DNA from: Halegenticoccus soli
GTDB lineage: Archaea; Halobacteriota; Halobacteria; Halobacteriales; Haloferacaceae
Length of the DNA stretch: 64,000 bases
NCBI RefSeq assembly: GCF_002844195.1
Contig: NZ_PEND01000001.1
Coordinates: 310,001-374,000 of the forward strand
Direction of reading: 5' to 3'
The notes under the pieces are model-generated. The model was not told the DNA's origin, did no database searches, and worked only from the letters and a program-made list of their open reading frames with translations. A program made the translations under genes and the position numbers. Each line of letters begins with the position of its first letter. Position 1 is the stretch's first letter. Of the stretch, positions 5,417 through 59,804 are shown piece by piece.

Positions 5417-6733
5417 TCAACCGCCCGTGCTCGCCACGGTGAGCGCGAGACGGTACGGGTAGTCGCCGGTGTCCCTGATGCGACCCGTTTCGCGTTCACC
5501 CCCGTCCTCGCCCCACCGCCGAACGCCGAAGTAGTCGTCGACGACGTACGTTCCGGGCGCGAGGTTTCTCGCGTCGGCTCGGAGCAGGTAGGTTCGACGC
5601 ATCGTTTCTCCGGGGAGCAGCGGCACGCCGAGTCCGATCGAGTTCACGATTACCGTCCCGTCGTCCCGGGGGTGAACGTAGTCACTCGTCTCGTACCGAT
5701 CGCTCCACAGGACGACGCCGCCCTCGCCGTCCCTCCTCTTCGCCGAGAGGACTCCGAACGGCGGCGGCGCGCCGCAGAACAGCGTAACCGGGACGTGTCC
5801 CGTGTTCGTGACTGACCGCGTGAGCGTCGCGGGGGAGTCCGGCGCGATCGCCGCGTCGCCCAGAGCCGCCTCGAACCGTACCGGGAGCGATTCCGGGCGG
5901 GCCGCGAACAGGTACGGCTCGTAGTACTCGCCCTCGATGCGGACGTAGTCGTAGGCTGCGACCGATTCCTCGAGTTCCGCCGGAAGGTCGTGCATCCGAT
6001 ACCGCCGGCCGTCCGTCTCGAACGCGCCGCGGATCGCCCGACGCGCCGCGGGCGGCAGGTCGGCGAGGTCCGCGACCGTCCCGCCGCGAATCCGCGACTC
6101 GTCCGCGGGCGTCGCCCGCAACGCGTACGGCGGTCCCGGATCGTCGACCGAGAGCGTCAGTTTTCCGCATCCGTCGGAGTGCCGGACGAAGTCGTATTCG
6201 GAGAGGAACGCCCGTAGCTTCGGGTCGAGAGCGGTGGTTCGGTGCTCCAGCTTCCCGCGGACGAGACTTCCGACAACCTCGTTCACCGCCCGAGTCCGTC
6301 GAACGACGTCCCCGTTCACGTCCGCGGTTCGACCCGGAGCGGCGGCGTCTCTCGGAACCGGGTCCAGCGTCAGGACGAGTTCCGGAAACGTCGAATCGAG
6401 TCCGTAGATCCGGTCGTCCGCGGCCGCGTACCCCGTCCGAACCGCGTACCGGAGTTCGTCGGACGGATCGTCGATTTCGTACCTCCCCTCTTCGATCGCC
6501 GACTCGACGGCCGCTCTCGCCCCCGCAGGCAGATCGGTGACGTGGGGCGCGCGTACGTCGAGGCTGCCCCCGTAGCTGAGATCGAGCAGGTATCGGTAGG
6601 TCGTCACCCCGTCGAGGGATGCGGTGAAGGCGGTATCGTCCGGCGGTACGTCGTCCTTTCGCTCGTCTCGCCCGAGACACCCGGCCGAGACAGCGCCCGT
6701 CCCGACGGCGGCGAGGAAGCGGCGACGGTGCAT
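5417..6733 (-). CDS. Tat-exported lipoprotein, function unknown
   Basis: A 438-aa protein. It starts MHRRRFLAAVGTGAVSAGC: a twin-arginine signal followed by a lipobox ending in Cys19, so export through Tat and lipid anchoring at the outer membrane face are expected. The body contains two similar blocks built around LPAGARAAVESAIEEGRYEI and LPPAARRAIRGAFETDGRRY, suggesting an internal duplication, then a C-terminal immunoglobulin-like beta region with ALTRSVTNTGHVPVTL-type strands. The reading frame stays open far upstream, into the next gene; this ATG was chosen because it begins the signal peptide. No enzymatic motif is visible. Confidence 0.82.
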   Translation of the reverse strand: MHRRRFLAAVGTGAVSAGCLGRDERKDDVPPDDTAFTASLDGVTTYRYLLDLSYGGSLDVRAPHVTDLPAGARAAVESAIEEGRYEIDDPSDELRYAVRTGYAAADDRIYGLDSTFPELVLTLDPVPRDAAAPGRTADVNGDVVRRTRAVNEVVGSLVRGKLEHRTTALDPKLRAFLSEYDFVRHSDGCGKLTLSVDDPGPPYALRATPADESRIRGGTVADLADLPPAARRAIRGAFETDGRRYRMHDLPAELEESVAAYDYVRIEGEYYEPYLFAARPESLPVRFEAALGDAAIAPDSPATLTRSVTNTGHVPVTLFCGAPPPFGVLSAKRRDGEGGVVLWSDRYETSDYVHPRDDGTVIVNSIGLGVPLLPGETMRRTYLLRADARNLAPGTYVVDDYFGVRRWGEDGGERETGRIRDTGDYPYRLALTVASTGG

Positions 6734-6846
6734 GCGATGTCGTCCCCCGACCGCGGCATAATCCTTCTGTAGGCGCAAACGAGCGCTTGTGTCTCCGACC
6801 GCAGAACCGTCGCCGGCTCGGTTTCGCTCGCCCCCGAACCGCCGGC

Positions 6847-8754
6847 TCACTCGCCGTCGCGTGCGCGACCGGCGATCCGCTCTACCACCGCCGGGTCGGC
6901 GCTCTCGATCTCGCCGGCCTGCACGCTCCACAGGGTCGCGTACAGCCCGCCCCGCGCGACGAGCTCCTCGTGGGTGCCCCGCTCGGCGATCCGCCCCTCG
7001 TCGAGGACGAGGATCTGGTCCGCGCCCCTGATCGTCGAGAGGCGGTGGGCGATCACGAACGTCGTCCGGTCCGCCGTCAAGCGGGCGAGCGCCCGCTGGA
7101 TGAGCAGTTCGGTCTCGGTGTCGACCGCCGAGGTCGCCTCGTCGAGCACGAGGATCTCCGGATCCTGCAGCATCGCCCGGGCGATGCTGATGCGCTGGCG
7201 CTGGCCGCCGGAGAGCTTCACCCCCCGCTCGCCGATCCTGGTGTCGTACCCGTCGGGGAGGCGTTCGACGAAGTCGTGCGCCTCCGCCGCCGTCGCCGCG
7301 GCGACCATCTCCGCCTCCGTCGCGTCGAACGCGCCGTACAGGAGGTTCTCGCGGACGGTCCCGTCGAACAGGTACACGTCCTGGCTCACGTACCCGACGG
7401 CGCCGCGTAGCGATTCGAGGGCGACGTCCCGCACGTCGACGCCGTCGATCCGGACCGCGCCCCCCGGATCGGAGACCTCGTACAGCCTGAGCAGGAGCTT
7501 CGCGGCGGTCGACTTGCCGGCCCCGGTCGGCCCGACGAGGGCGACCGTCTCGCCCGGCTCGGCCGCGAAGCTCACGTCCCGCAGCACGGGGACGCCGTTC
7601 GAGTAGGCGAAGTCGACGGCGTCGTACTCGACGCGGCCCTCGACGCCGTCGAGGACGACCGCGTCGGAGGCGTCGGCGACGGTCACGGGGATGTCCGCGA
7701 GCCCGAAGACGCGCGCGGCGGAGGCGCGGGCGTTCTCGTAGCTGTTGACGATGCGCCCCGCCCCGCCGAGCGGGCCGACGAACCGCTGGGTCATGAAGAG
7801 GAACGTGACGAACTCGCCGACGAGAAGCCGGCCGCCGAAGGAGGGCGGCGGACCGGCGACGAGCCAGTACCCCCCGAGCAGGAACGTCGCGGCGAACGCG
7901 ACGCCGGAGAGCAGTTCCATGCTCGGCTGATAGAGGTATTCGAGCTTCGCCACGGCCCACGATCGGAGGTAGTAGTCCCACGACGCCTCGGCGACCCGCC
8001 CCTCCTCGTACGCCTCGGCGTTCGACGCCTTGATGACCTCGATGCCGGCGACGTTGTTTTCGAGCCGCGCGTAGAGGTCGCCGACGCTCGCGCGAAGCGC
8101 CGCGTACATGGGCCGGATCGTCCGCATGAACCGCACCGTGAAGGCGAGGAGAAGCGGCACCGCGACGAGCGTCACGAGCGCGAGCTGCCAGTTGAGCCAG
8201 AGGAGCACGCCGGCGATGGCGACGACCGACGCGACGAGCTGGATCGCGCCGCTGAACGAGCTGTCGAGGAACATTCGGAGGTTCCGCACGTCGCTGTTCA
8301 GGACGCTCAGGACCTGCCCCGTCTGCTTGTCGTCGAAGAACGCCATGTCGAGCCGCTGCATGGCCGCGTAGGCGTCGGTGCGGACGGCGTGCTGGATGCG
8401 GTTCGAGTACAGCGACAGGCCGATCCCCTGGAGCCAGGTGAAGACCACGCCGAGGACGAACCCGGCGGCGATGAGGAGCGCGGAGAGCCACAGCTGCCCG
8501 AGGCGCGTCGTCGGGAGCCAGGCGTCCGGAACCAGCGGCAGGCTGAACGGGGCGTTTCCCCCGAACACCGAGTCGATTGCGACCCCGAGCACCAGCGGCG
8601 GCAGCAGGGCGACCAGGCTCGCACAGACGCTCGCGAGGAGCCCGAGCAGGAACCACCCGAGGTCGTCGCGGCCGTACTCCGCGAACACTCTGACCAGCGG
8701 GTCGGAGCCGGCGTCGCGGTACTCGTCGAACGGGTTGGGCGTCTCCGGATTCAT
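6847..8754 (-). CDS. ABC exporter, fused permease and ATPase (MdlB/MsbA-like)
   Basis: A 635-aa half-transporter that presumably works as a homodimer. The N-terminal half has about six membrane segments (ABC_membrane type) including LGWFLLGLLASVCASLVALL. The C-terminal ATPase shows Walker A GPTGAGKST near residue 405, the signature LSGGQRQR, and Walker B ILVLDEATSAVD. I chose the internal ATG beginning NPETPNPFDEYRD, because the 17 residues before it are arginine-rich and lie over a low-quality upstream stretch. The substrate cannot be predicted; lipid or drug export is typical for the family. Confidence 0.9.
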   Translation of the reverse strand: MNPETPNPFDEYRDAGSDPLVRVFAEYGRDDLGWFLLGLLASVCASLVALLPPLVLGVAIDSVFGGNAPFSLPLVPDAWLPTTRLGQLWLSALLIAAGFVLGVVFTWLQGIGLSLYSNRIQHAVRTDAYAAMQRLDMAFFDDKQTGQVLSVLNSDVRNLRMFLDSSFSGAIQLVASVVAIAGVLLWLNWQLALVTLVAVPLLLAFTVRFMRTIRPMYAALRASVGDLYARLENNVAGIEVIKASNAEAYEEGRVAEASWDYYLRSWAVAKLEYLYQPSMELLSGVAFAATFLLGGYWLVAGPPPSFGGRLLVGEFVTFLFMTQRFVGPLGGAGRIVNSYENARASAARVFGLADIPVTVADASDAVVLDGVEGRVEYDAVDFAYSNGVPVLRDVSFAAEPGETVALVGPTGAGKSTAAKLLLRLYEVSDPGGAVRIDGVDVRDVALESLRGAVGYVSQDVYLFDGTVRENLLYGAFDATEAEMVAAATAAEAHDFVERLPDGYDTRIGERGVKLSGGQRQRISIARAMLQDPEILVLDEATSAVDTETELLIQRALARLTADRTTFVIAHRLSTIRGADQILVLDEGRIAERGTHEELVARGGLYATLWSVQAGEIESADPAVVERIAGRARDGE

Positions 8755-8983
8755 TCGAAGTCGGCGGACGTGATCCGCTCGCAGTCCCGCGGTTCGCGCC
8801 CTCACCTCACGTTAGTGACCGCCGTATTTGAACCGCGCGCCTGGGGGCTCGCGAGCGGTCCGACCGCCGCGTGCCCGAGTCAGACCGTCGCGCCTCCGAG
8901 CCCGATTGCCGCGCCCCCGAAACCGACAGCGGAATGCCGCTCGAACCGCTGATTGTACCCATGCGCTCCGGAGGGATCGGACG

Positions 8984-9460
8984 GTGACCGGCGGCTCCGA
9001 CGCCGATCGGTACGGGTTCGACGAGAACCGGAACTACCTCGCGGAGGCCGTCGGCAAGTTCGTCCCGCAGCCGCTGGCGCGGCGGGCGCTGCGGATCGAC
9101 CTCGAAACCGACCGCGAGGCGTACCGCCCGGGCGACGCGGTGGAACTCACGGTCGCCATCGAGAACCGCCTCCCGCTGCCGATCGCGGTCGCGACCCCCC
9201 AGCGGCGGCTCTGGGGGTGGACCGTCGACGGCGAACTCGAAGCGAGCGACGAAAAGCGGTACGCGAGCGGCGCGGCGGGGCGGTTCCCCTTCCGAGCGGG
9301 CGAGCGGAAGGTCATCACCTGGACGTGGAACGGGCGGTTCAAGCGCGTCGGCGACCGCACGACCTGGGAGACGCCGGCTCCCGGAACCTACGAGATCCGG
9401 GCGTTCGTCGCCACGCGCCCGCCGCGGCCGAGCGACTCGGTCCGGATCCGGATCGGGTGA
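8984..9460 (+). CDS. BsuPI-like (intracellular proteinase inhibitor) domain protein
   Basis: A 158-aa protein. The start is GTG with a good upstream GGAGG about 9 nt away; the earlier in-frame ATG at 8828 would add an arginine-rich, non-haloarchaeal-looking segment. The core, ETDREAYRPGDAVELTVAIE onwards with WTWNGRF and APGTYEIRAFV, looks like an immunoglobulin-like beta sandwich of the BsuPI family. No signal peptide. The fold assignment is from pattern only, and the inhibitor role is not shown here. Confidence 0.6.
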   Translation: MTGGSDADRYGFDENRNYLAEAVGKFVPQPLARRALRIDLETDREAYRPGDAVELTVAIENRLPLPIAVATPQRRLWGWTVDGELEASDEKRYASGAAGRFPFRAGERKVITWTWNGRFKRVGDRTTWETPAPGTYEIRAFVATRPPRPSDSVRIRIG

Positions 9461-9543
9461 GGGAGGGTAAGGGGCGGTCAGCCGATCCGTCGTCACCCTC
9501 GCGCCCCGACGCTCGATCAGCCCGGCCGACCTGATCAGCCAGG

Positions 9544-10821
9544 TCAGTCCGCGCGCTTCGTCCGGTGGAGGTGACAGGCGGCGAAGTGTTCGCCCCGGCC
9601 GTACTCCGGCTCGACGTGGTACGCCGGCTTCTCCTCGGCGCAGACGCTGTTCTCGGCGAACGACTCGGTGAGGAGCGCCGCGGCGCGATCCCAGTCGTCC
9701 TCGAGTATCGCCTCGATGCTCTCGTCGACGACGGCCGCCGCGTCGCCGCGCGGTTCCGCGTCGGCGAAGAACTCCGCGCGGATCGCGCGCCCGGTCGACG
9801 CTTCGAAGGTGCGGCGATCGACGGCCCGCACGAACCGGCGGACGTTCGCCCACTCGGCGTCGGTCAGGTCGTACTCCGCCGGCACGATGAGCTTCGGACA
9901 GCGCGTCCGGAACCGACAGCCCGACGGCGGGTCGATCGGCGAGGGGACGTCGCCTTCGAGCACGCCGCGCCGGCCCTCGGCCCGCGGGTCCGGAACCGGG
10001 ATCGACTGGAGCAGCGCGTCCGTGTACGGGTGCTGGGGGTTCTCGAACAGCTCGTCGGTCTCGGCGAGCTCGACGAGCTGGCCGAGGTACATGACGGCGA
10101 CCCGGTCGGAGATGTGGCGGATCACGGAGAGGTCGTGGCTGATGAACAGGTACGTGAGGCCGAACTCCCGCTGGAGGTCGCGCATGGTGTTCAGCACCTG
10201 CGCCTGGATCGAGGCGTCGAGCGCGCTCGTCGGCTCGTCGCAGACGATGAAGTCCGGATTCACCGCGAGCGCCCGGGCGAGGTTGACGCGCTGGCGCTGG
10301 CCGCCCGAGAACTGGTGGGGGTAGCGGTTGTAGTGGTGCGGGTCCAGCCCCACCTTCTCCAGCAGCTCGCGGGCGCGCTCCTCGCGTTCCCCCTCGTAGA
10401 GGCCGTGGGCCTTCATCGGCTCCTCGACGATGGGGCCGACCTTCATCCGGGGATCGAGGCTCGACTGGGGGTCCTGGAAGATCATCTGCATGTCCTTGCG
10501 GTGGTTGCGGACCGCCTCGCCGGAGAGTTCGGCGAGGTTCTCGCCCTTGAAGTACACCGCCCCGTCGGTCGGTTCGAGCAGGCGGAGCACGGTCCGCGCG
10601 AGCGTCGACTTGCCGCAGCCGGACTCGCCGACGAGCCCCAGCGTCTCGCCCTTCTTGATGTCGAAGGAGACGTCGTCGACGGCCTTCACCTTCGGCTTCG
10701 GGAAGATGCTGCTGAGCAGGCCGCTCCCCTGGCTGAAGTGCTTCGTCAGCCCCTCGACCGACAGGATCGTCTCGCCGTAGTCGACCTGTTCCTCGTCGTG
10801 CCGCGCGACCGCCCTACTCAT
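9544..10821 (-). CDS. Dipeptide/oligopeptide ABC transporter ATP-binding protein (DppF/OppF type)
   Basis: A 425-aa ATPase, last gene of the importer operon. Walker [10 protein letters not shown], signature FSGGQRQR and Walker B DEPTSALD are all present. After the ATPase core comes the oligo_HPY region with [10 protein letters not shown]. About 100 residues near the C-terminus are acidic and unlike bacterial homologues, before the closing [10 protein letters not shown]. The chosen ATG overlaps the stop of the upstream ATPase gene by 8 nt, typical of translational coupling; another ATG lies 9 nt earlier. Confidence 0.92.
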
Positions 10822-11929
10822 CGCTCTCACCCCGCGCTTCGACCAGGCCGCCGCCGAATGCGCCGGTCGCCGCCGTCTCCAGCGGGTCCGAGTCCTCGTA
10901 CCCGACGTCCTCGTACTTCACGCACGAGACGCGGTGCGGCGGTTCGTCGCCGGTCACGTCCTGGTACGCCGGGTGCGCCCGCCGACACACCTCGCGCGCG
11001 TCGGGACAGCGAGTGTGGAACCGGCAGCCCGGCGGCGGGTTGATCGCCTCGGGCATCACCCCCTCGATCGGGTTCAGCTCCTCGACCGTCTGGTCCGGCC
11101 GGGGGATCGAACGGAGCAGCGCCTCGGTGTAGGGGTGTTTGGTGTCGTAAAACAGGTCGTCGACCTCGGCCTGTTCGACGATCTCGCCGAGGTACATCAC
11201 GTTGACCCGGTCGCAGATCTCGGCGACGACGCCCATGTCGTGGGTCACCCAGATGAAGCTCGTGCCGTACTTCGCCTGGAGGTCGCGCACGAGGTCGAGG
11301 ATCTGTCCCTCGACGGTCACGTCGAGCGCGGTGGTCGGTTCGTCCGCGATGATGAGGTTGGGTTCGCACGCGAGCGCCATCGCGATCAGCACGCGCTGGC
11401 GCATCCCGCCCGAGAACTGGTGGGGGTAGTCGTCGTAGCGCTCTTCGGGCTCCGGAATCCCCACCTCCCGGAGCATGTCGACGGCGATCTCCCTGGCCTC
11501 CGCCTTCGAGACCTCGCGGTTGATCTCAATGAACTCCCGGAGCTGGTCGCCGACCTTGAACACGGGGTTGAGGCTCTCCATCGGGTCCTGGAAGATGATC
11601 GCTATCTCCCGGCCGCGGATCCGGGTCCGCATCTCCGCCTCCGAGAGCATCTCTGGCGATCGGCGGCGTTCGCCGTCGGGGCCCTCTTCGAATCCGACGA
11701 GCACCTCGTCGCGGTACCTGACGGTGCCGCCGACGACCTCGCCGGGGTTCTCGACGAGCCGCATGATCGAACTCGTCGCGACGGACTTGCCCGCGCCGGA
11801 CTCGCCGACGAGCCCGACGATCTCCCCTTCGTTCACCTCGAAGCTGATGCCGTCTACGGCGCGGACGACACCCTCCTCGGTGAAGAACTGTGTCTGCAGG
11901 TTTTCGACGGTGAGTAGTGGTTCGCTCAT
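10814..11929 (-). CDS. Dipeptide/oligopeptide ABC transporter ATP-binding protein (DppD/OppD type)
   Basis: A 371-aa ATPase. It starts [19 protein letters not shown], the usual N-terminus of the family, which fixes the start 35 codons into the open frame. Walker [10 protein letters not shown] (ending in Val instead of Thr), signature FSGGMRQR and Walker [10 protein letters not shown] are present, followed by the oligo_HPY segment with [10 protein letters not shown]. Its ATG overlaps the TGA of the upstream permease (TGATG). It pairs with the ATPase at 9544 to drive the importer. Confidence 0.92.
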
Positions 11930-12960
11930 CAGTTGTTGATCCGTGGGTCGAGTGCGTCTCGCAGGCCGTCGCCGAGCAGGTTGAAGCCGACCACCGTCAC
12001 GAGGATGGCCACCCCGGGCCAGATGCTGAACCACGGGTTCGGAAGCATGTAGTTCCGCGAGCTCGAGAGCATCTGCCCCCAGGAGGGGGTCGGCGGCTGC
12101 GCGCCGTAGCCGAGGAACGACAGCCCCGCGATGATGAGGATGTTGATGCCCACCTGGAGGGTCGCCTGCACCAGCACGGGCGCGAAGCTGTTCGGGACGA
12201 CGTGCCGGAGGATGATGTTCCGGTCGCGCACCCCGGCGGCGCGCGCGGCCTCGATGAAGTCCTCCTCGCGGACGCTCAGCACCCGCGAGCGGATGAGCCG
12301 CGCGAAGGTCGGGATGGTGGCGATCCCGACGCCGATCATCGCGAACATCAGGTTCCGGCCGAAGGCCGTCATGAACGCGATGACGAGCACGAGGAACGGA
12401 ATCGCGAAGAGCGTCTCCGCCGCCCGCATCAGCGCGTCGTCGACCCAGCCGCCGTAGTAGCCGGCGACGGCCCCAACGAGCGTCCCGAGGATCATCGCGA
12501 TCCCGGTCGAGACGATCCCGACGGTGATGGCGATCTGCGTCCCGTAGAACAGCCGCGAGAGGACGTCGCGGCCGCGGTGGTCCGTCCCGAGCGGGTGGTC
12601 TAACGTTCCGGGCCGGTTCGGGTACAACTCGTTCGTCAGTCCGAACGGCGGACGCAGGATCTCCGCGCCTGCCGGTTCGTGCACCGGACTGTACCAGAAG
12701 GTCTTGGCGAGCCAGTACTTTTCGACGCCCAGGTTCGCGAAGAACCCGATCTTCGAGAGCTGTTCGAAGACGGTGCTGTCGACGAACGCGATCAGCGCGA
12801 CAGTCGTCGTGAGGCCGATGATGAAGAGGCCCGCGAGCGCCGTCGGGTCGCGTCGCACCTGCGAGAGCGTGTACCGAAGCCCGACGCGCGCTTCGACCTT
12901 CTCTTCGGCCTCGGCGTCCCGGACGTCGAACTTCGTCGAAGTGGATGTGTCCGTTGCCAT
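11929..12960 (-). CDS. Dipeptide/oligopeptide ABC transporter permease (DppC/OppC type)
   Basis: A 343-aa inner-membrane permease. An N-terminal soluble stretch is followed by a first membrane helix (PTALAGLFIIGLTTTVALIAF), a long extracytoplasmic loop, and five further helices. The EAA-type cytoplasmic loop that docks on the ATPase is IEAARAAGVRDRNIILRHVV. The gene is 2 nt from the upstream permease and overlaps the downstream ATPase gene by 1 nt. Confidence 0.92.
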   Translation of the reverse strand: MATDTSTSTKFDVRDAEAEEKVEARVGLRYTLSQVRRDPTALAGLFIIGLTTTVALIAFVDSTVFEQLSKIGFFANLGVEKYWLAKTFWYSPVHEPAGAEILRPPFGLTNELYPNRPGTLDHPLGTDHRGRDVLSRLFYGTQIAITVGIVSTGIAMILGTLVGAVAGYYGGWVDDALMRAAETLFAIPFLVLVIAFMTAFGRNLMFAMIGVGIATIPTFARLIRSRVLSVREEDFIEAARAAGVRDRNIILRHVVPNSFAPVLVQATLQVGINILIIAGLSFLGYGAQPPTPSWGQMLSSSRNYMLPNPWFSIWPGVAILVTVVGFNLLGDGLRDALDPRINN

Positions 12961-49621: not shown

Positions 49622-50734
49622 GTGACACTCGATATCAATCGACGGAACGTGCTCAAGGCGACCGCCGGGCTGAGCGCGGCCGGGCTCACCGGTACGGCCG
49701 GCTGCCTCGGCGGCGGGAGCGGCGGCTCTTCGCGGGCTCCGACGGACGTCACGGAGTGGCCGCCGGAGGACCTCGAAGGGAACCTCAACCTGTGGAACTG
49801 GTACGACGACTGGGCCGAGTACGCCAAAGAGGAGTTCGGCAACGAGTTCGGCGTCACCGTCACGAACAGCGGCTACTCCTCGCCGGACCAGTGGTACGCG
49901 AAGCTCCAGTCGGGGAACAGCGAGATCGACAACATCGCCGCGACGACGAACTGGGTCGAGCGATCCATCGAGAACGACTTCCTCCACGAACTACCCGTGG
50001 ACATCATGCCGGCGTGGGAGAACATCACGGACCGCGTCAAGGACGTCAGCTCCTACCAGAAGGACGGTAAAACGTACGCCGTCCCCGAATCGCTGGTGCT
50101 GTACCCCCTGACGTACAACGAGGAGTACTTCGACGAGGAACCGCGCTCGTGGGACGTCCTCTGGGACGAGGCGCACAAGGACAGGATCGTGATGTGGGAC
50201 AACAGCACGGTTTCGTGTCAGATCGCGGCGCTGTACACCGGTCAGGACCCCATCGAGCCCGACGATTTCGGCGAGATCGAGGAGGTGCTCAAACAGCAGA
50301 AGCCCCTGCTCAAGACCTACTGGGGCGACTACCAGCAGGGGATGAGCCTGTTCGTCAACGAGGAGGCCGTCGCCGGCCCGCTCACCATGGGGCGGACGTA
50401 CACCGCCCGGTTCGGCGAGGGCGCGCCGGTCAACTACACCGCGCCCGACGAGGGGGCGATGTACACGAGCGACCTGTTCGTCATCCCCAAGGGCGCGCCG
50501 AACCCGATCGCCAGCCTCCAGTTCACGAACTGGGCTTCGGAGAAGAAGCACGCGACGAAGCTGTTCGAGACGATGGGGTACATGCCCGCCGTGGACATCG
50601 GCAGCGAGCTCTCCGAGGAGGACCGAACGTTCACCGAGTGGCCAGACAGCTGGAACCTGGTCTTCTCGGCGACCCTCTCCGACGAAGTCCGCTCGAAGTA
50701 CGACGAGATCTGGACCGCGGTCAAGGCCGCCTAG
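49622..50734 (+). CDS. Spermidine/putrescine-type ABC transporter substrate-binding lipoprotein (PotD-like)
   Basis: About 370 aa. A Tat lipoprotein signal RRNVLKATAGLSAAGLTGTA is followed by Gly-Cys and a Gly/Ser linker. The body is the SBP_bac_8 fold (NLNLWNWYDDWAEYAKEEFG, SWDVLWDEAHKDRIVMWDNS). First gene of a four-gene operon whose ATPase, PotB-type and PotC-type permeases follow without gaps. A polyamine ligand is inferred from operon layout; related systems also carry thiamine or iron. The GTG was chosen from the leaderless promoter position and signal length. Confidence 0.88.
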   Translation: MTLDINRRNVLKATAGLSAAGLTGTAGCLGGGSGGSSRAPTDVTEWPPEDLEGNLNLWNWYDDWAEYAKEEFGNEFGVTVTNSGYSSPDQWYAKLQSGNSEIDNIAATTNWVERSIENDFLHELPVDIMPAWENITDRVKDVSSYQKDGKTYAVPESLVLYPLTYNEEYFDEEPRSWDVLWDEAHKDRIVMWDNSTVSCQIAALYTGQDPIEPDDFGEIEEVLKQQKPLLKTYWGDYQQGMSLFVNEEAVAGPLTMGRTYTARFGEGAPVNYTAPDEGAMYTSDLFVIPKGAPNPIASLQFTNWASEKKHATKLFETMGYMPAVDIGSELSEEDRTFTEWPDSWNLVFSATLSDEVRSKYDEIWTAVKAA

Positions 50735-50740
50735 TCATCG

Positions 50741-51889
50741 ATGTCGCTGCTCACCGTTTCCAATCTCACAAAGCGGTTCGGAGACCTGACCGCGGTCGAC
50801 GGCGCTTCGTTCGACATCGAGGACGGGGAGTTCGTCTCGATTCTCGGGCCGAGCGGCTCCGGGAAGTCGACGATCCTCCGGATGGTGGCCGGGTTCGAAG
50901 CGCCCACGGCGGGGTCGATGACGCTCGACGGGAACAGCCTCGTCGGCGTGCCGCCGTTCGAGCGCGACCTGAACATGGTGTTTCAGAACCTGGCGCTTTT
51001 CCCCCACCTCACGGTCGCGGAGAACATCGGTTACGGGCTGAAGCAGTCCGGCGTCCCGAAGGGCGAACGGAAGGACCGCACCGCGGCGATGCTGGAGATG
51101 GTCCACCTCGAAGGGTACGGCGACAGGAATCCGGACGAACTCTCCGGCGGCGAGCAGCAGCGCGTCGCACTCGCCCGGGCGCTGGTGAACGAACCCGCCC
51201 TGGTCCTCTTCGACGAGCCGCTGTCGTCGCTCGACCGCAAGCTGCGCCAGCATATGCAGTCGGAGCTTCAGCGCATCCAGGCGGAGACCGGCATCACGTT
51301 CCTGTACGTGACCCACGATCAGGAAGTCGCGCTGTCGGTCTCCGACCGACTCATCGTCCTCAACGACGGCCGGATCGAGCAGGTCGGCCCCGTCGAGGAG
51401 CTGTACGACGAGCCGGCGACCGCGTTCGTCGCGGACTTCATCGGCGACGTCAACGCGATCTCCGCGACGGTCGTCGAACGCGACGGGGAGCATCTCACGC
51501 TCGACGCCGGGACGGCGACGAACCTGCGCGCCCGGACGGACGGCCGGTGGCAGCCCGGTGACCGAATCGACGTCTGCGTCCGGCCGCACGAGGTCCGTCT
51601 GCTGGACGCCGTCGGGGACGCGCGGTCGTTCGCGACGAGGGGAACCGTCCGAACGCGGAGCTACCAGGGAAGTGACATCGTCTACACCGTCGAAACGGAG
51701 TGGGGCCCCCTCACCGTGAACGCCCGCGAGCGGGGGCACGCCGTCGGCGACGAGGTCGCGGTCACCTGGGACGCGGCGGACGCGCACCTGTTCCCGGCGG
51801 GGGAGTCCGACGCGGAGTCCGAATCGACCGACGCGACCGCGGAGCGATCGGCCTCCGAATCGGACCGGGCGCGTCCGGAGGGAGCCTGA
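50741..51889 (+). CDS. Spermidine/putrescine-type ABC transporter ATP-binding protein (PotA-like)
   Basis: A 382-aa ATPase. Walker A GPSGSGKST, Q-loop MVFQNLALFPHLTV, signature LSGGEQQR, Walker B LVLFDEPLSSLDRKL and the H-loop YVTHDQ are all present. The C-terminal TOBE domain (about residues 240-345) is followed by an acidic haloarchaeal tail. It begins 6 nt after the PotD-like stop; its TGA overlaps the next ATG. Confidence 0.93.
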   Translation: MSLLTVSNLTKRFGDLTAVDGASFDIEDGEFVSILGPSGSGKSTILRMVAGFEAPTAGSMTLDGNSLVGVPPFERDLNMVFQNLALFPHLTVAENIGYGLKQSGVPKGERKDRTAAMLEMVHLEGYGDRNPDELSGGEQQRVALARALVNEPALVLFDEPLSSLDRKLRQHMQSELQRIQAETGITFLYVTHDQEVALSVSDRLIVLNDGRIEQVGPVEELYDEPATAFVADFIGDVNAISATVVERDGEHLTLDAGTATNLRARTDGRWQPGDRIDVCVRPHEVRLLDAVGDARSFATRGTVRTRSYQGSDIVYTVETEWGPLTVNARERGHAVGDEVAVTWDAADAHLFPAGESDAESESTDATAERSASESDRARPEGA

Positions 51890-52809
51890 TGGCCGAGGCC
51901 GCGTCGACGGAGGAACGATCGACGGGGAGGAACCGGCGGGTGCGGGCCCTCGTGACGTACCTCCGGGACCGCCGGCGGCTCCGAACGTCGCTCGTCGCCG
52001 GCCCGCCCTACGCGGTCCTGGTGCTGTTCTTCGCGCTCCCAGTGCTGACGATGCTCGTCATTTCGTTTCGACTCGGAAGCATCACCGGCCCGTTCACGCT
52101 CGACAACTACGCGAACTTCCTCGCGTCGGACACCTACCGCACGGTCCTCTGGCGGACGCTCCTCGTCACCGTCGAGGTCACCGCGATCGTGACCGTCGTC
52201 GGCTACGCGCTCGCCTACAGCATCGTCCGGTTCTCCCGGCGGACGACGCTGCTCCTCCTCCTCGTCATCCTGCCGTTCTGGACGAGCTACATCATCCGCA
52301 TGTACGCCTGGATCAACATCCTCCAGAGCGGCGGCGTTCTCGATTCGACGCTCGTGCTGCTGCGCGTCGTGGACGGACCGGTCGGGCTGCTGTACTCCCA
52401 GGAGGCCGTGCTCATCGGCTTCACCTACGTCTGGCTCCCGCTCGCCGTGCTACCGTTCTACGCCTCGCTCTCGAACATGGATCCGGACCTCATCGAGGCC
52501 GCCAAGGACCTCGGTGCCGGTCCCATCAAGGCCTTCTTCACGGTCACGCTGCCGACGACGGCGAACGGGGTCGTCACGGGGATCATCCTCGTGTTCATCC
52601 CGACGTTCGGGTCGTTCATCACCCCGCGGCTGCTCGGCGGGACGAACAGCATCATGATCGGCATGGTCATCGAGAACCAGTTCAAGTCCGCCTTCAACTA
52701 CCCGTTCGGCGCGGCGATCGGGATGATCATCTCGGCGGTCGTCGTGGCGGTGCTCCTGTTCGGGGCGCGCGGCGGCGGCACCCTCTTCGCCGGGGGTGAC
52801 GGACCGTGA
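51889..52809 (+). CDS. ABC transporter permease (PotB-like)
   Basis: A 306-aa permease with six helices (GPPYAVLVLFFALPVLTMLV first). The ATPase-docking EAA loop is LIEAAKDLGAGPIKAFFTVT. The start was set at the TGATG overlap with the ATPase gene, although the frame is open further upstream. It works as a heterodimer with the PotC-like protein. Confidence 0.92.
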   Translation: MAEAASTEERSTGRNRRVRALVTYLRDRRRLRTSLVAGPPYAVLVLFFALPVLTMLVISFRLGSITGPFTLDNYANFLASDTYRTVLWRTLLVTVEVTAIVTVVGYALAYSIVRFSRRTTLLLLLVILPFWTSYIIRMYAWINILQSGGVLDSTLVLLRVVDGPVGLLYSQEAVLIGFTYVWLPLAVLPFYASLSNMDPDLIEAAKDLGAGPIKAFFTVTLPTTANGVVTGIILVFIPTFGSFITPRLLGGTNSIMIGMVIENQFKSAFNYPFGAAIGMIISAVVVAVLLFGARGGGTLFAGGDGP

Positions 52810-53639
52810 ACGCCCTCGACGGCGCGCTACGCCCGCTCGAACGGCTCGTCCAGCGCCACGGGAGCCGTCTGGCGCGCGTCGTCATGGTCGCGGTGTTCGC
52901 GTTCCTCTGGCTCCCGATCGGGGTGCTGGTCCTCATGTCGTTCGCGGAGGGGGGCGTCCTCTCGTTCCCGCCGGAGGAGCTCACGCTCCGGTGGTACGGC
53001 GCGTTCCTCTCGAACGACACCGCGCGTCGCGCCATCGCGTTGACCCTCAAGATAAGCACCGTCGCGACGGCGGTGACTGTCGCGCTGTCGACGCTCATCG
53101 CGTACGCGGTGGACCGGTTCGAATTCCCGGGAAAGGGTCTGCTACAGTTACTCGCCACGCTCCCCATCGTCGTTCCGCTGGTGGTCACGGGCGTCGCGCT
53201 GGTGCTGTTCTTCGGCACGATCAACCTCGGCTCGGGCTACTGGTCGGTCGTCGTCGCGCACGTCGTCCGGACGATCCCGTTCGCCACGCTCGTCATCCTG
53301 CCGACCTTCCTCACCTTCGATCGGCGGCTCGAAGAGGCCTCGAAGGACCTCGGAGCCGACGAACTCGAAACGTTCGTCCAGGTCACCCTGCCGAACGTGT
53401 TTCCCGGGATTCTCGCCGGCGGGCTGCTCGCCTTCACGATCTCGTTCAACGAGTTCGTCTTCACCTACTTCGTGAAGGGGTCGGGGCAGTCGACGCTGCC
53501 CGTCTACATCTGGGACCAGATCCGGTACAACGTCACCCCCGAGGTGAACGTCATCAGCGTCGTGTTCCTGCTCGTCGCGGTCTCCATGGTGCTCGTCGCG
53601 GTGTCGCTCACGCGGGTTGAGCTGCTGGCCCGGCGGTAG
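52806..53639 (+). CDS. ABC transporter permease (PotC-like)
   Basis: A 277-aa permease with six helices (VVMVAVFAFLWLPIGVLVLM first) and the EAA loop LEEASKDLGADELETFVQVT. The GTG start overlaps the PotB-like stop by 4 nt. It ends the operon; the next gene has its own TATA-like box. Confidence 0.92.
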   Translation: MNALDGALRPLERLVQRHGSRLARVVMVAVFAFLWLPIGVLVLMSFAEGGVLSFPPEELTLRWYGAFLSNDTARRAIALTLKISTVATAVTVALSTLIAYAVDRFEFPGKGLLQLLATLPIVVPLVVTGVALVLFFGTINLGSGYWSVVVAHVVRTIPFATLVILPTFLTFDRRLEEASKDLGADELETFVQVTLPNVFPGILAGGLLAFTISFNEFVFTYFVKGSGQSTLPVYIWDQIRYNVTPEVNVISVVFLLVAVSMVLVAVSLTRVELLARR

Positions 53640-53720: not shown

Positions 53721-54791
53721 ATGAGCGAGCCGAGCCCCGAAGTGTACGAGCGCGGGCGCGGGATGGACGCGCACAACAAGGTGATGCGCGAGATCCGCGC
53801 GCAGAAGGAGAAACGCTACGACCCCCACGAGCCGACGCGCGTCTGGATCGACGAGGACAACACCCCGGACGGGGTGTACCAGTCGCTCACGATCATCCTC
53901 AACACCGGCGGCTGCCGGTGGGCCCGCGCCGGCGGCTGTACGATGTGCGGGTACGTCGCCGAGTCCGTCGAGGGCGGCAGCGTCAGCCACGAGGCGCTTT
54001 CGGACCAGATCGAGGTCTGCCTCGACCACGAGGAGGAGAACGCCGACGAGGAGTCCGGGCTGATCAAGATCTACACCTCCGGATCGTTCCTCGACGAGCG
54101 CGAGGTGCCCGCCGAGACGCGGCGGGCCGTCGCCGAGACGTTCGCCGACCGCGACCGCATCGTCGTCGAGTCCCTCCCCGATTTCGTCTCCCGCGAGAAG
54201 CTGGCGGACTTCACCGGCGTCGGCCTGGAGACGGACGTGGCGGTCGGCCTCGAAACCGCGACGGACCGCGTCCGCCGCGACTGCGTGAACAAGTACTTCG
54301 ACTTCGAGGACTTCGTCGCCGCGAGCGAGGAGGCGGACGCGGCGGGAGCGGGCATCAAGGCGTACCTGCTCATGAAGCCGCCGTTCCTCTCGGAGCCGGA
54401 GGCCGTCGAGGACATGAAGCGGTCGATCCGCCGCTGCGCCGAGTACGCCCACACGGTGTCGATGAACCCCTGCAACGTCCAGCGGTACACGATGGTCGAC
54501 GAGCTGCACTTCCGCGGCGGCTACCGCCCGCCGTGGCTGTGGTCCGTCGCCGAGGTGCTGCGCGACACCGCCGACGTCGACGCCATCGTCGTCTCCGATC
54601 CCGTGGGCCACGGCTCCGACCGCGGCCCGCACAACTGCGGCGAGTGCGACGACCGCGTCCAGACGGCGATCAAGGACTTCGACCTCCGGCAGGACCCGAC
54701 GGTGTTCGAACAGGTCTCCTGCGACTGCGAGGCGACGTGGCGGGTCGTCATGGACGAGGAGACGAGCTACGGGATGCCGCTCGCCCGATAA
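53721..54791 (+). CDS. Archaeosine synthase radical SAM subunit RaSEA
   Basis: A 356-aa radical SAM protein. The [4Fe-4S] cysteines are C65, C73 and C76 in GGCRWARAGGCTMCGY, a CX7CX2C spacing instead of the common CX3CX2C. The SAM-binding strand YTSGSFLDEREVP and VGLETATDRVRRDCVNKYF follow. RaSEA works with ArcS to convert lysine-modified preQ0 in tRNA to archaeosine. Further Cys residues near the C-terminus (HNCGECDDR, SCDCEATW) may bind another metal. tgtA and arcS are in this window, 17-20 kb away. No other gene intervenes before the microprotein at 55027. Confidence 0.92.
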   Translation: MSEPSPEVYERGRGMDAHNKVMREIRAQKEKRYDPHEPTRVWIDEDNTPDGVYQSLTIILNTGGCRWARAGGCTMCGYVAESVEGGSVSHEALSDQIEVCLDHEEENADEESGLIKIYTSGSFLDEREVPAETRRAVAETFADRDRIVVESLPDFVSREKLADFTGVGLETDVAVGLETATDRVRRDCVNKYFDFEDFVAASEEADAAGAGIKAYLLMKPPFLSEPEAVEDMKRSIRRCAEYAHTVSMNPCNVQRYTMVDELHFRGGYRPPWLWSVAEVLRDTADVDAIVVSDPVGHGSDRGPHNCGECDDRVQTAIKDFDLRQDPTVFEQVSCDCEATWRVVMDEETSYGMPLAR

Positions 54792-55026: not shown

Positions 55027-55149
55027 ATGGACGAGAACGACGGACGGTTCACGGCGCTCTACTGCACCGACGGGTGGTTCGAGATCCGGGAGGACGGCAA
55101 CCCGGAGGGATGGATCGCGACGGACGCGGCGGTCTGGATCCCGACGTAG
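55027..55149 (+). CDS. 40-aa Trp-rich haloarchaeal microprotein
   Basis: A tiny acidic protein with three Trp, starting DENDGRFTALYCTDGWFEIR and continuing NPEGWIATDAAVWIPT. A purine-rich AGGAGACGGAG lies directly upstream of the ATG, so it probably has a Shine-Dalgarno-type start. The composition is haloarchaeal and a beta-hairpin-type fold is likely. Family and role unknown to me. It ends 124 bp before the 1233-aa regulator gene on the same strand, which has its own TATA-like box. Confidence 0.65.
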   Translation: MDENDGRFTALYCTDGWFEIREDGNPEGWIATDAAVWIPT

Positions 55150-55216
55150 CGCGGGCGGCGACCGCGGAGGCTTCCGGTCGCGCCCGCGGGGAGCGACGCG
55201 CAGGCGGCGGCCGACC

Positions 55217-55225
55217 ATTTATTAC
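55217..55225 (+). promoter_or_regulatory. TATA-like box for the 1233-aa wHTH/NTPase/TPR gene
   Basis: ATTTATTAC lies 49-57 nt before the ATG at 55274, implying a leader of about 25 nt. Confidence 0.45.
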
Positions 55226-55273
55226 ACTCTCCCGCACAGTCCGAGATACGAACACGACGGTTCGGGTGAAAAA

Positions 55274-58200
55274 ATGCGCAGGAAGGCGGCGGAAGATCAC
55301 GCGGCGCTCGTTCGACTCGTCACGAAGCGGCTGGGCTTTCTCGAACGGCTCGGGTCGTCCCGGCTCGAAAAGCGCGAGCTGGTCGACGAACTCGACTGCT
55401 CGCGGTCGACCGTCGACCGCGCCGTCCGCGAACTCGAACTCGCCGACCTCGTCCGCCGCGTCGACGGCGGCTACGAGACGACACTCGCCGGCGAGCTGAT
55501 CGCGGACCGCCACCGCGAGTACGTCGGCGACGTCGCCGACGTGCTCGACGCGAATCCGGTGCTCGCGTCGCTCCCCGCCGGCGCGCCCGTCGACGCCGCG
55601 ATGCTCCTCGGGGCCGACGTCCGGAGCGTCGACGACTCGACGGTCGACGGCGTGCTCGACTACGTCCACCGGCGCGTCGGGGACGCGGACGGGCTTCGAA
55701 TCGTCGCCCCCGACGGGCTCGATCCGCGGTTGCTCGACGTCTCCCGGGCCCGGATCGGGGAGGGCGAAATCCCGACGGAACTGGTCGCCGATCCCGCGCT
55801 GTTCACGCGGTACCGCCCCCGGCTCGCCGGCACGGTCGCGGCGATCGCCGAGAACGACGGCGAAGCGGCGTTCTCGCCCGAAACGCCGCCGTTCGCGCTC
55901 TTTCTCGTCGAGCGGGACGGCGACCGGACGGCCCTCGTCGTCGTCCACGACGGCGATCGGACGGTCAGCGGCGCGCTCGGGAACGGCACGGACGCCGCGG
56001 TCCGGTGGGCCGAGTCGTTGTACGACCGCGTCCGCGCCGACGCGACGGACGTGACCGGTCGGATCGATCCGACCGTCGACGGAGGCTCCGCCGCCACGGA
56101 GTGGGACGGCGGTCCCGATTTCTTCCGCGGGATCGCCGCGGCGCGGGACGCGGATCGGTCGCCCCCGGCGGCGGGCCGCCTCGGCGTCCCCGACGGGGAG
56201 TTCGAACGGGTCGCGCTCGAATCGGAGGGCTTCGTCCGGCTCTCGGAGACGTACTTCGAGGGGCGACGACCCGCGGAGCCGGCGACGTGCTGGCGAACCG
56301 GGTTCGACCTCGTCGAAGTCGGCGCGGGGTACGCCATCGACCGCGAGTACGAACGCGGCGGCGAGCGGCGGAACCTCACGGACGACCTGCTCGATCGGCT
56401 GGGGGACGGCGTCGACCACGTCGTCGTCGGTCCCCCCGGTTCCGGCAAGAGCACGGTCTGCAAGTCGGTCGCCTGCCGCTGGTACCGCGAGGGCCGCGGC
56501 GCGGTGTTCTACCGCGCCGGCGGCGACGGCACGGCGTTCACGAACGAGGCGGTGCTGCGGGCGCACCTCCGGCGGGCGGAGGGGCACGCCCTCGTCGTCG
56601 TGGAGGACGCCGTCAGGAGCGAGGCGAACGCGGCGCTCTGGCTCGCGACGGCGTTCCGGGGGCGGTCGGACGTCACGTTCCTGTTCGACGCGCGGGACGG
56701 GGAGTGGCGGGATCCGGAGAGCCTGCCGATCGACGCGGGCGTCGAGGTCTACCGGACCGACGACGTCGAACTCGTCCGGGTGCCGGGGATCGACGAGACG
56801 GAGTGTCGGCGGCTCGTCCGCCGGTTCGAGGAGACCACGGGCCGCGCCGTCGACGCGACGGCCGAGCACCTGCTGCGCGAGATCCGCACGGGGTCGAGCG
56901 CCGACTCGGCCGCCGAGGCCCGCCCCGACGAACTGCTGTTGTTGCTCCACCGGCTCTCGCTGTTCGCCGATCCCCTCGCCGGGTACGACTCGAACACCTC
57001 CACGTCGCTCCTGGCGGACATCCGGCGGACCCTCGCGCTCCTCCGCGACGCCGACGGGGAGGGCGACCTCGCGATGGACGTGGGCGTTCTCGTCAACCTC
57101 CTCAACGCGACCGGCGTCGGCGTCCACCCCGAACTGATTCACGCGGTCGACGACGACCACGGCGCGGTTCGCGCCGCCCTCTCCCTCCTGGAAGGCAGCG
57201 TCCTCTTCGGGCGCGACGGCCCGTCCGAGGGCGGGCGGCCGAGGTACCGGACCGTCCACGAGTCGTGGTCGACGACCTTTCTGACGACGCTGTTCGAGCG
57301 GGAGTCGCTCCCGGCGGCGCAGGCGCGGTTCGGGCGGTGCGTCACGGCGCTCCTGTCGCTCGCGGACGACGCGGAGCGGCGCGAGCGGATCGACTGGGAG
57401 TTCGAAGGCGACGCCCCGCGCGTGGCCGAGATCGCGGCGTCCCCGCGGGAGTGGGCCGACCGGATCGTCGAGCGCCTGTTCGCCTTCGGCCGGGAGCACC
57501 CGGGACTCGCCCCGCTTTTCGGAAAGAGCGGGTACTCGCACATCGAACTCCCGGCGACCTGCTCGCCCGACCTGTCGGTGCGCTGCACGAAGTGGCGCGG
57601 TCGGATGTGCCTCGACGGCGGCTACTTCGACAGGGCGGAACACGAGTTCGAGCGCCTCCGCGAGACCGTGTCCGGGGGGCCGCCGCCCGGCGTATCCGCG
57701 TCGACCGCGGCGGAACTCGACGCGTGGGGGCTGCGGTCGCTCGGCGCGCTCGCCCGGCGACGGGGGAACCTCGACCGCGCGGAGGCGTACGCGCGCCGGA
57801 GCCTCGACCGCTCCCGCGAGATCGACGACACGCAGGGCGAGGCGGACTGTCTCAACCACCTCGGCGCGGTCGCCTGGTCCCGCGGCGACCTCGACGGGGC
57901 GGAGCGGTACTTCTCGCGGAGCCTCGACGTCAAGCGCGACCTCGGCGACCGCCGCGGCGAGGCGAACTGCCTCAACAACCTCGGCATCGTGGCCCTGGTC
58001 CGCGGGGAGATCGGCGCGGCCGAGACGTACCTGCGCCGGAGCCTCGACGCGAGACACGAACTCGGGGACGCGAGCGGCGAGGCGAGCGGCCTGACGAACC
58101 TCGGCGTCATCGCCCGCGACCGCGGGGAGTACGACGCGGCCGCGACCCGCGCGACGCGCAGTCTCGACATCTGGCGGGAGATCGGCGACGCCCACGGCGA

Positions 58201-58975
58201 GGCGAACGGCCTCTTCCTGCTCGGCCAGATCGAACGTCGGCGCGGGAACCTGGAAACGGCGGCCGAGTACGCCGCACGCAGCCTCGACGTCCGGCGGCGG
58301 ATCGGCGACGCCCACGGCGAGGCTGACTCGCTCCGGCTGCGCGGCGAACTCGCCCGGGAGCGCGGCGAGACGGCGACCGGCCGGGCCCGCGCCGAGGAGT
58401 CGCTCGCGATCTACCGGGAGATCGGCGACGACCGGGGGGAGGCGCAGGCGCTCGCCCTCCTCGGCGGCCTCGCCTGCGACGCCGGCGATCCGGCCGCGGC
58501 CGAGCGACACGCCGAGGCGTGTCTCGCGCTCAGGGGCGACGTGACCGATCGGGGGGTCGCCGACGCGCTCAGGGTGCGCGGCGCGGCCGCCCGGGGCCTC
58601 GGGAACCGCGAGGAGGCACGACGCCACCTCGAACGGAGCCTCGACATCTGCCGCGAGAAGGGGTACAGGCACGCGGAAGCCGACGCGCGGGTCGAACTCG
58701 GCGCGCTCCGCCGCGACGGGGGCGACCTCGTCGGCGCCCGAGAGCAGTTCGACGCGGCGGGCGCGATCTACCGGGAGATCGGCGCGGCGCGGGACGCGCT
58801 CTCCGCGCTGCGGCGGCTGTGCGCCGTCTCGGAGCGGCTCGACGGCGCGGCCGCGGCGGCGGAGCGCTGCGAGGACGCGCTGGCGCTCGCCCGCGAGGCG
58901 GCCCTCGACGACGAGGCGGACGCGTTCGAAGGGGAGCTGCGGCGGCTGCGCGCCGGGAGCGACGAAGCGGCGTAG
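55274..58975 (+). CDS. Large fusion: winged-helix regulator, FilR1-like sensor, P-loop NTPase and TPR repeats
   Basis: A 1233-aa cytoplasmic protein. Residues about 20-75 form a winged helix (EKRELVDELDCSRSTVDRAV). Residues about 85-270 resemble the FilR1-type ligand-sensing domain of haloarchaeal transcription regulators (NPVLASLPAGAPVDAAMLLG). Then comes a STAND/NACHT-like NTPase: Walker A G386-PPGSGKS-T394, a Walker-B-like ALVVVEDA at about 439-446, and a helical arm to about residue 760. The rest, from about 810, is at least nine TPR units of 40 residues (RGNLDRAEAYARRSLDRSRE type). The gene stands alone. By domain logic it is a signal-triggered switch: TPRs sense or assemble, the NTPase powers the change, the HTH acts on DNA. 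Its target is unknown. Confidence 0.8.
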   Translation: MRRKAAEDHAALVRLVTKRLGFLERLGSSRLEKRELVDELDCSRSTVDRAVRELELADLVRRVDGGYETTLAGELIADRHREYVGDVADVLDANPVLASLPAGAPVDAAMLLGADVRSVDDSTVDGVLDYVHRRVGDADGLRIVAPDGLDPRLLDVSRARIGEGEIPTELVADPALFTRYRPRLAGTVAAIAENDGEAAFSPETPPFALFLVERDGDRTALVVVHDGDRTVSGALGNGTDAAVRWAESLYDRVRADATDVTGRIDPTVDGGSAATEWDGGPDFFRGIAAARDADRSPPAAGRLGVPDGEFERVALESEGFVRLSETYFEGRRPAEPATCWRTGFDLVEVGAGYAIDREYERGGERRNLTDDLLDRLGDGVDHVVVGPPGSGKSTVCKSVACRWYREGRGAVFYRAGGDGTAFTNEAVLRAHLRRAEGHALVVVEDAVRSEANAALWLATAFRGRSDVTFLFDARDGEWRDPESLPIDAGVEVYRTDDVELVRVPGIDETECRRLVRRFEETTGRAVDATAEHLLREIRTGSSADSAAEARPDELLLLLHRLSLFADPLAGYDSNTSTSLLADIRRTLALLRDADGEGDLAMDVGVLVNLLNATGVGVHPELIHAVDDDHGAVRAALSLLEGSVLFGRDGPSEGGRPRYRTVHESWSTTFLTTLFERESLPAAQARFGRCVTALLSLADDAERRERIDWEFEGDAPRVAEIAASPREWADRIVERLFAFGREHPGLAPLFGKSGYSHIELPATCSPDLSVRCTKWRGRMCLDGGYFDRAEHEFERLRETVSGGPPPGVSASTAAELDAWGLRSLGALARRRGNLDRAEAYARRSLDRSREIDDTQGEADCLNHLGAVAWSRGDLDGAERYFSRSLDVKRDLGDRRGEANCLNNLGIVALVRGEIGAAETYLRRSLDARHELGDASGEASGLTNLGVIARDRGEYDAAATRATRSLDIWREIGDAHGEANGLFLLGQIERRRGNLETAAEYAARSLDVRRRIGDAHGEADSLRLRGELARERGETATGRARAEESLAIYREIGDDRGEAQALALLGGLACDAGDPAAAERHAEACLALRGDVTDRGVADALRVRGAAARGLGNREEARRHLERSLDICREKGYRHAEADARVELGALRRDGGDLVGAREQFDAAGAIYREIGAARDALSALRRLCAVSERLDGAAAAAERCEDALALAREAALDDEADAFEGELRRLRAGSDEAA

Positions 58976-59062: not shown

Positions 59063-59749
59063 TCAGTCGGCGACCCGGAAGCCGGAGAGGATCCCCTGTC
59101 CGTCCGTTCCGGCGCGGAGGTCCGGCAGGGTCGCGCGCTCGGGGTGAGGCATCAGCACCGCGACCGTGTCGCGCTCGCCGAGCACGCCCGCGACGTTTCC
59201 GGTCGAGCCGTTCGGGTTCGCCGCCTCGGTGACCTCGCCGTCGGCGTCGCAGTAGCGGAACAGGATCCGGTCCTCGGCCTCCAGACGCTCGTACCGGTCG
59301 GGCGCGATCTCGAAGCGCCCCTCGCCGTGGGCGATGGGGAGGGAGATCACCTCCCCCTCGTCGTAGGCGCGGGTCCACGGGGTGTCCGCGTTCTCGACGC
59401 GGAGGGTCGCGTGCTCGCACTGGAAGCGGGCGCTCCGGTTGGTCGTGAACGCCCCGTCGGTGAGCCCGGACTCGCACCCGATCTGCGCGCCGTTGCAGAC
59501 CCCGAGAACCGGCGCGCCGTCGGCCGCGGCCTCCCGGACCTCGGCCATGATCGGCGACCGCGCGGCCATCGCCCCGGCGCGCAGGTAGTCGCCGTAGGAG
59601 AAGCCGCCGGGGAGCACGATCCCCGACGCGTCGGCGGGGAGGCCGTCCTCGTGCCAGACGCGGCGGGCGTCGATCCCCAGGTTCGAGAGCGCCCGGACCG
59701 CGTCGCGGTCGCAGTTGCTCCCGCCGAACTGCACGACGGCGACCGTCAC
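59063..59749 (-). CDS. purQ: Phosphoribosylformylglycinamidine synthase subunit PurQ
   Basis: A 228-aa class I glutamine amidotransferase that supplies ammonia for FGAM synthesis in purine biosynthesis. The nucleophile Cys is in PVLGVCNGAQIG, with His and Glu in LMPHPERATLP. The start is the GTG before TVAVVQFGGSNCDRDA, the usual N-terminus; a GTG three codons earlier is also possible. It lies 55 bp downstream of purS. PurL, the catalytic partner, is not in the window. Confidence 0.95.
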   Translation of the reverse strand: MTVAVVQFGGSNCDRDAVRALSNLGIDARRVWHEDGLPADASGIVLPGGFSYGDYLRAGAMAARSPIMAEVREAAADGAPVLGVCNGAQIGCESGLTDGAFTTNRSARFQCEHATLRVENADTPWTRAYDEGEVISLPIAHGEGRFEIAPDRYERLEAEDRILFRYCDADGEVTEAANPNGSTGNVAGVLGERDTVAVLMPHPERATLPDLRAGTDGQGILSGFRVAD

Positions 59750-59804
59750 CGCGACCACCTCCCGCGGCGTCGTCGGGGGGGTACGAGCGGAGCGACGATC
59801 CCCG

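Follow-up and report, generated by a model that had tools for sequence, protein, structure and literature searches.

The gene at positions 55274..58975 (+ strand) of the window, the 64,000-nucleotide stretch of Halegenticoccus soli DNA analysed here, probably encodes an autoinhibited haloarchaeal STAND-type transcription switch with a tetratricopeptide repeat (TPR) sensor. Its product of 1233 amino acids (aa) joins a winged helix, a FilR1_middle domain, an nSTAND_NTPase5 domain and a TPR array in a single chain. The open reading frame (ORF) starts at the first ATG of its frame, and its GC content at the three codon positions (0.78/0.52/0.93) matches that of coding haloarchaeal genes. The original prediction of a 1233-aa fusion at this position was upheld by the coding GC profile and by Pfam, which recovered four domains in the order claimed. 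Distant relatives have these four parts in the same order, which excludes an assembly artefact. An ORF on the opposite strand (55049-58672, 1207 aa) was dismissed as the usual high-GC shadow.

Domain architecture and predicted fold

The N-terminal head, like all parts of the protein encoded on the + strand, consists of an HVO_A0261_N winged helix (residues 11-87, 55304..55534, Pfam 1.5e-16) and a FilR1_middle domain (residues 129-256, 55658..56041, Pfam 3.8e-13), the pair that characterises HVO_A0261/FilR1-type regulators. An AlphaFold2 model of residues 1-790, built with 40 related sequences, reached a predicted local distance difference test (pLDDT) score of 86. Over most of the winged helix the pLDDT was above 90, and this part matched TrmBL2 in Foldseek. 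The FilR1_middle domain aligned with FAM83A (4urj) with a template modelling (TM) score of 0.64 on the target, suggesting that the modelled domain has a phospholipase D (PLD)-like fold. The HxK catalytic motif was not seen in FilR1_middle on inspection by eye, and catalysis by this domain is therefore unlikely. The model thus resembles TrmBL2 and a PLD-like fold and does not contradict the FilR1-type assignment originally made for this region.

A disordered linker (residues 268-306, 56075..56191, pLDDT <50), the most variable stretch among relatives, separates the head from the STAND switch module (residues 310-765, 56201..57568). As delimited by an alignment of 32 relatives and the AlphaFold2 secondary structure, this module comprises the nucleotide-binding domain (NBD), the helical domain, the winged-helix domain and the start of the arm. 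The Pfam match to nSTAND_NTPase5 at residues 366-480 (3.2e-9, 37.2 bits) exceeds the curated cut-off of 34. Conservation across 40 sequences revealed the nucleotide-binding residues. The Walker A motif GPPGSGKST lies where it had been predicted (residues 386-394, 56429..56455), with G386, G389, G391 and K392 invariant and S393 and T394 nearly so; the Walker B motif VVVED (residues 441-445, 56594..56608) is nearly invariant, with a predicted strand at 439-443; and the sensor strand ends in D-A-R (residues 472-474, 56687..56695), whose nearly invariant R474 is a STAND-type arginine. His662 in the motif VHESW (57257..57259) is invariant, as is W665, and is placed after a predicted winged helix at 597-660; it is likely the winged-helix-domain histidine at a position presumably equivalent to MHD, where it would sense ADP.

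The C-terminal part is an array of about ten 40-residue TPRs (residues 806-1205, 57689..58888, TPR_12 9.5e-40), the sensor. The protein thus displays the P-loop, the Walker B acidic pair and the strand-4 arginine conserved in the 40 sequences, the succession of NBD, helical domain and winged-helix domain with a conserved histidine near its end, and the C-terminal repeat sensor, all of which are STAND features. Foldseek comparison of the model with the PDB gave EfAvs5, a SIR2-STAND protein, as the best match (1.4e-8), followed by ADP-state NOD2 (2.5e-6), by TrmBL2, which matched the head (6e-6), and by MalT (6.6e-6); a sequence profile search of the PDB returned mainly ABC-transporter P-loops and was uninformative. 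Taken together, Pfam, AlphaFold2 and Foldseek bear out the proposal that a winged helix plus FilR1 head is joined to a STAND NTPase and TPRs with the DNA-binding part at the N-terminus. Homologues share no single metabolic operon, so that none of the three outcomes named as refuting the original prediction was observed.

For such a protein we propose the following cycle. At rest it would probably be an ADP-bound monomer, closed by contacts between the NTPase, the arm and the TPR superhelix. An inducer, either a protein or a small molecule, would bind the TPR array and open the protein, as we propose by analogy with MalT and PH0952 of Pyrococcus horikoshii, in which arm and TPR contacts hold the core closed. 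Exchange of ADP for ATP would follow, and the NTPase core would open and oligomerise, clustering the TrmB/FilR1-like heads, which would then bind, or release, a palindromic operator and so change the transcription of what are probably a few local genes. In this scheme the ADP/ATP cycle, the oligomerisation and DNA binding by the head are inferred, and so is what the window protein regulates and what induces it.

A haloarchaeal family with exchangeable heads and sensors

A probe of 442 aa covering the NTPase found matches in 56 of the 170 genomes of the taxonomic family; a few matched via the P-loop alone, and the remainder were mostly open frames near 1200 aa. Profile search of the order extended the family to 80 of 392 genomes and 35 of 96 genera, and the phylum sample outside the order gave a single weak profile match. 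The window protein therefore belongs to a widespread haloarchaeal family and is not a one-off fusion. The relatives were sampled as best matches, not as random draws (80 examined, window included), and among them 63 of 80 carry a head of the window type, recognised by Pfam in 31 of 40 and by a head profile in 32 of 40; each of the 40 relatives scanned with Pfam had an nSTAND_NTPase5 match (E up to 1e-3). Ten haloarchaeal plasmids carry one relative each, annotated only as a TPR, ATP-binding or hypothetical protein. A scan of genome contigs with the single sequence matched nothing, and the profile scan of these contigs yielded a single relative, from a haloarchaeon, besides a doubtful P-loop match in a bacterium.

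Two relatives (L187 7022-11005 and L188 7138-11547) bear a Ser/Thr kinase domain in place of the head (9.8e-29 and 4.8e-26), joined to an equivalent STAND-TPR chassis. A tree of 74 NTPase domains, obtained by a short search and with some weak forks, shows just two changes of head type and places the kinase-headed pair inside the helix-turn-helix (HTH)-headed group, adjoining the window's clade, as expected if the head is the output. The N-termini of the remaining relatives, mostly helical, matched no Pfam family above the cut-off, and their model was poor (pLDDT 61). Six of these (L048, L049, L181, L189, L202 and L205) have a helical N-terminal region of 200 aa with an Ala/Gly-rich hydrophobic start (e.g. 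NLVAAGITAGTAAGADK); this helical domain could be an output of the membrane or cell-death type.

The sensor is exchangeable as well. Comparison of two loci of genus g8, L040 of G036 (gene at 8431-12063) and L041 of G025 (gene at 8185-11817), showed that their flanks, heads and NTPases are mostly 92-99% identical in DNA, that about 0.9 kb of the TPR array (residues ~889-1128) is only 52-62% identical, and that identity then returns to 89-99%. In a third genome (G030, L039), where head and NTPase are less similar, the sensor is of the L041 type, at 87% identity. That of L040 is roughly equidistant (43-50%) from all other members of the genus, which gives it the look of an allele acquired from a relative outside the sample. 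In g8 the TPR sensor was thus exchanged as a cassette, which suggests that it recognises a variable ligand, as would be expected of a sensor tracking such a ligand. In other close pairs, outside g8, TPR and NTPase diverge at similar rates.

Conserved slot and divergent partner

The neighbours of the window gene are a co-oriented radical-SAM gene upstream and a convergent purQ downstream, in agreement with the earlier view that it sits alone. The radical-SAM gene (53721..54791, + strand, a weak Pfam Radical_SAM match), whose product we take to be RaSEA-like, has a counterpart in 165 of 167 genomes from the taxonomic family and forms the left border of a conserved slot; purQ (59063..59758, - strand, GATase_5, Pfam 4.2e-40) forms the right one. 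Eight relatives occupy this slot as well, three in the window's family (G043, G004 and G005) and five in a second family (G377, G395, G425, G433 and G399). The slot-group proteins fall into one clade (SH-like approximate likelihood ratio test, SH-aLRT, 89), which includes some off-slot copies. The slot is old, and the gene in it probably largely vertical. In the sister species G008, whose flanks are about 86% identical, the gene is cleanly absent and some 28 bases separate the matched flanks. Compared with its slot partner in G043, the window protein is 36% identical in the head, 58% in the NTPase and 36% in the TPR array, and the nearest flanking proteins are 81-88% identical; it is diverging much more rapidly than the proteins around it.

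In G042 and G044 of genus g10 the slot contains only a gene the size of the head, its open frame measuring 265 and 286 aa, respectively. Since the head of G042 groups as sister to that of the G043 fusion (100/98), the STAND-TPR part was probably lost there and the head kept. In G120, from another genus, the NTPase is deleted and a TPR tail left, and the head is retained beside a partner gene described below. These three relatives that keep the head without the NTPase, two in the slot and one beside the partner, favour a transcriptional role for the head. Natural versions with the head alone, or with the head and a TPR tail, are located at L086 1593-2387, L087 ~6688-7434 and L129 991-2283 and can be used as controls.

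The fast divergence, the patchy presence with clean absence in the sister species, the TPR cassette exchange between close g8 species and the standing of the anti-phage protein EfAvs5 as best structural match would all suit an NLR-like antiviral or conflict sensor, in which recognition of a viral protein by the TPR array would lead the ATP-loaded oligomer to activate genes for defence or dormancy. We consider such a sensor improbable. No recurrent defence family was found among 111 representative neighbours, no Avs model matched the protein in a PADLOC scan, the gene occupies fixed, old chromosomal slots and not islands, no relatives were present in the viral contigs or phage records searched, and TPR and NTPase diverge alike in the close pairs outside g8. 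Phage sensing, which the original prediction had offered as one possible function, thus found no support in nearby defence genes, Avs-family matches or viral carriers. Single PADLOC matches near relatives (HamB, mad3, IetA and others, at 1-3 loci each) were set aside as chance or housekeeping relatives. Just as doubtful is a broader version, a clade-wide NLR-like receptor family with transcription as its output, in which the STAND core oligomerises, the clustered heads, or the Ser/Thr kinase after a head swap, trigger a local response that replaces cell killing, and cassette exchange tracks viral or competitor proteins.

The candidate operator for a transcription switch comes from genus g21, where the gene is divergent from an acylating-aldehyde dehydrogenase (ALDH)-like gene. 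When the ALDH-like gene is present, the regulator head adjoins it in 23 of 23 genomes; when it is absent, an HTH-headed copy occurs in 0 of 29, although two of these genomes (G135 and G153) have a copy whose N-terminus is of another type. The tie between the two genes points to local regulation. The spacer contains an imperfect palindrome, GTGAnACACTGTGTCAC, in 22 loci, with its outer and central pairs kept in 20-22 of the 22 and its middle pairs varying. Across five g21 genomes, matches to GTGAnACACTGTGTCAC with at most one mismatch were confined to this locus, a single one in G146 apart; G118 and G149 have two mismatches even in their local copies. Autoregulation together with control of the neighbouring gene is the simplest reading of this arrangement in g21, with the palindrome as candidate operator. 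The ALDH-like protein (L057 6406-7974 and 22 other g21 genomes) has no canonical catalytic cysteine and shows FGAHPAxDA in 12 of 12 sequences inspected by eye; judged by these residues, it is possibly a pseudo-enzyme.

The strict g21 pairing with a palindrome in between could also be read as the mark of a MalT-type metabolic one-component regulator, which would sense a metabolite or a transporter component and control a neighbouring catabolic gene. The close structural match to MalT and the position of the g8 copy, which adjoins a copper-ATPase region in most species, agree with such a regulator. However, neighbours are completely different between clades; the ALDH-like partner is without the canonical cysteine; and the window copy is without a divergent partner, its radical-SAM and purine neighbours forming no coherent pathway. 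A metabolic regulator of this type is accordingly possible but rather unlikely. Far less credible is a head that now serves mainly as a dimerisation or scaffold module, the protein acting by protein contacts and not by DNA binding. The kinase or helical N-termini do show that the STAND-TPR chassis can serve outputs that do not bind DNA, but the helix motif SRSTVxRA of the head is conserved with R44 nearly invariant in 40 relatives, heads persist alone after loss of the core, and the palindrome is kept beside the g21 copies.

Several observations weigh against a transcription switch. The g21 palindrome was not enriched in the window's genome relative to a reversed control, no palindrome upstream of the gene is common to the slot group, and none is clear at the window gene; we therefore do not put forward an operator for it. 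The co-inheritance of the two adjacent genes in g21 may partly reflect block transfer. Moreover, the helical N-termini of some relatives indicate that not every member of the family regulates transcription.

Upstream of the window gene, a TATA-like element, TTTATTA (55218..55224, + strand), was read directly in the sequence as a candidate promoter compatible with a start site about 25 nt upstream of the ATG, which is itself preceded by a Shine-Dalgarno-like GGGTGA; it is plausible that the gene has its own, putative promoter. A 40-aa ORF (MDENDGRFTALYCTDGWFEIREDGNPEGWIATDAAVWIPT) lies at 55027-55149, between the radical-SAM gene and the window gene, and other genomes have comparable short ORFs (YCSDGWLELRE..) after their radical-SAM gene. 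Further upstream of the slot, 49622-53639 holds an ordinary set of spermidine/putrescine-type ABC transporter genes, according to their translations, encoding a binding protein, an ATPase and two permeases.

Comparison with known systems

MalT carries a LuxR-type DNA-binding domain at its C-terminus. The E. coli protein is a STAND transcription factor with a TPR-like sensor, as proposed for the window protein, and is among its structural matches; unlike that C-terminal domain, the head of the window protein is N-terminal and TrmB/FilR1-like. GerE, the HTH of MalT and LAL proteins, was not among the Pfam families matched, the HTH of the window protein being at the N-terminus. The closest precedent is PH0952, an archaeal STAND protein with an N-terminal ArsR-like domain and a TPR sensor (PMC6468293; PDB 6MFV). 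Both proteins are archaeal, both are predicted transcription factors and both run from an N-terminal winged helix through the STAND core and arm to the TPR sensor, and autoinhibition of TPR-sensor STAND proteins, with arm and TPR contacts keeping the core closed, is established for PH0952 and MalT (PMC6468293). PH0952 differs in its ArsR-like head, for which no FilR1_middle is reported, and perhaps in its STAND clade, since it belongs to the APAF1/MalT side and the window protein matches nSTAND_NTPase5; 6MFV was absent among the sequence matches listed at E up to 0.01 and among the 50 best Foldseek matches. Given PH0952, neither the layout of the window protein is new in kind nor is the N-terminal placement of its DNA-binding head.

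The head itself resembles FilR1/HVO_A0261-type and TrmB-family regulators, with a winged helix plus FilR1_middle and the TrmBL2 fold class. Those regulators stand alone, or are fused to a receiver (REC) domain in FilR1 itself, while the window head is fused to STAND-TPR. FilR1 proper is a two-component regulator of Methanosaeta with a C-terminal REC domain (PMC5847659), and Pfam matched no REC domain in the window protein. Searches of the literature under the name HVO_A0261 found none, and no haloarchaeal nSTAND5 regulator was described in the literature searched.

Avs5 (EfAvs5) and the AVAST systems share with the window protein an N-terminal output, a STAND NTPase and a C-terminal helical-repeat sensor, but their output is a SIR2 or nuclease domain where the window protein has a regulator, and the PADLOC matches of the window protein were limited to a generic TPR model and to weak ones for HTH or P-loop. 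nSTAND NTPases of prokaryotic conflict systems form novel STAND clades that combine interchangeable N-terminal effectors with repeat sensors, and HTH outputs among them stand for a transcriptional response (PMC8195603); these descriptions focus on multicellular bacteria and death-like adaptors, unlike the haloarchaeal family of the window. Within the literature searched, what is new is a haloarchaeal nSTAND5 family with a TrmB/FilR1 head and kinase-headed variants, together with its conserved slot, its divergent partner with a palindrome and the exchange of sensor cassettes. Since haloarchaea include genetically tractable species, the sensor ligand and STAND-driven archaeal transcription become testable, and the candidate operator from g21 is available for such tests. 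Archaeal transcription factors are mostly small; here the NOD2-like layout of immune receptors is apparently wired to gene control, and the STAND-TPR module behind a TrmB/FilR1 head ties archaeal gene control to the NLR/Avs machinery.

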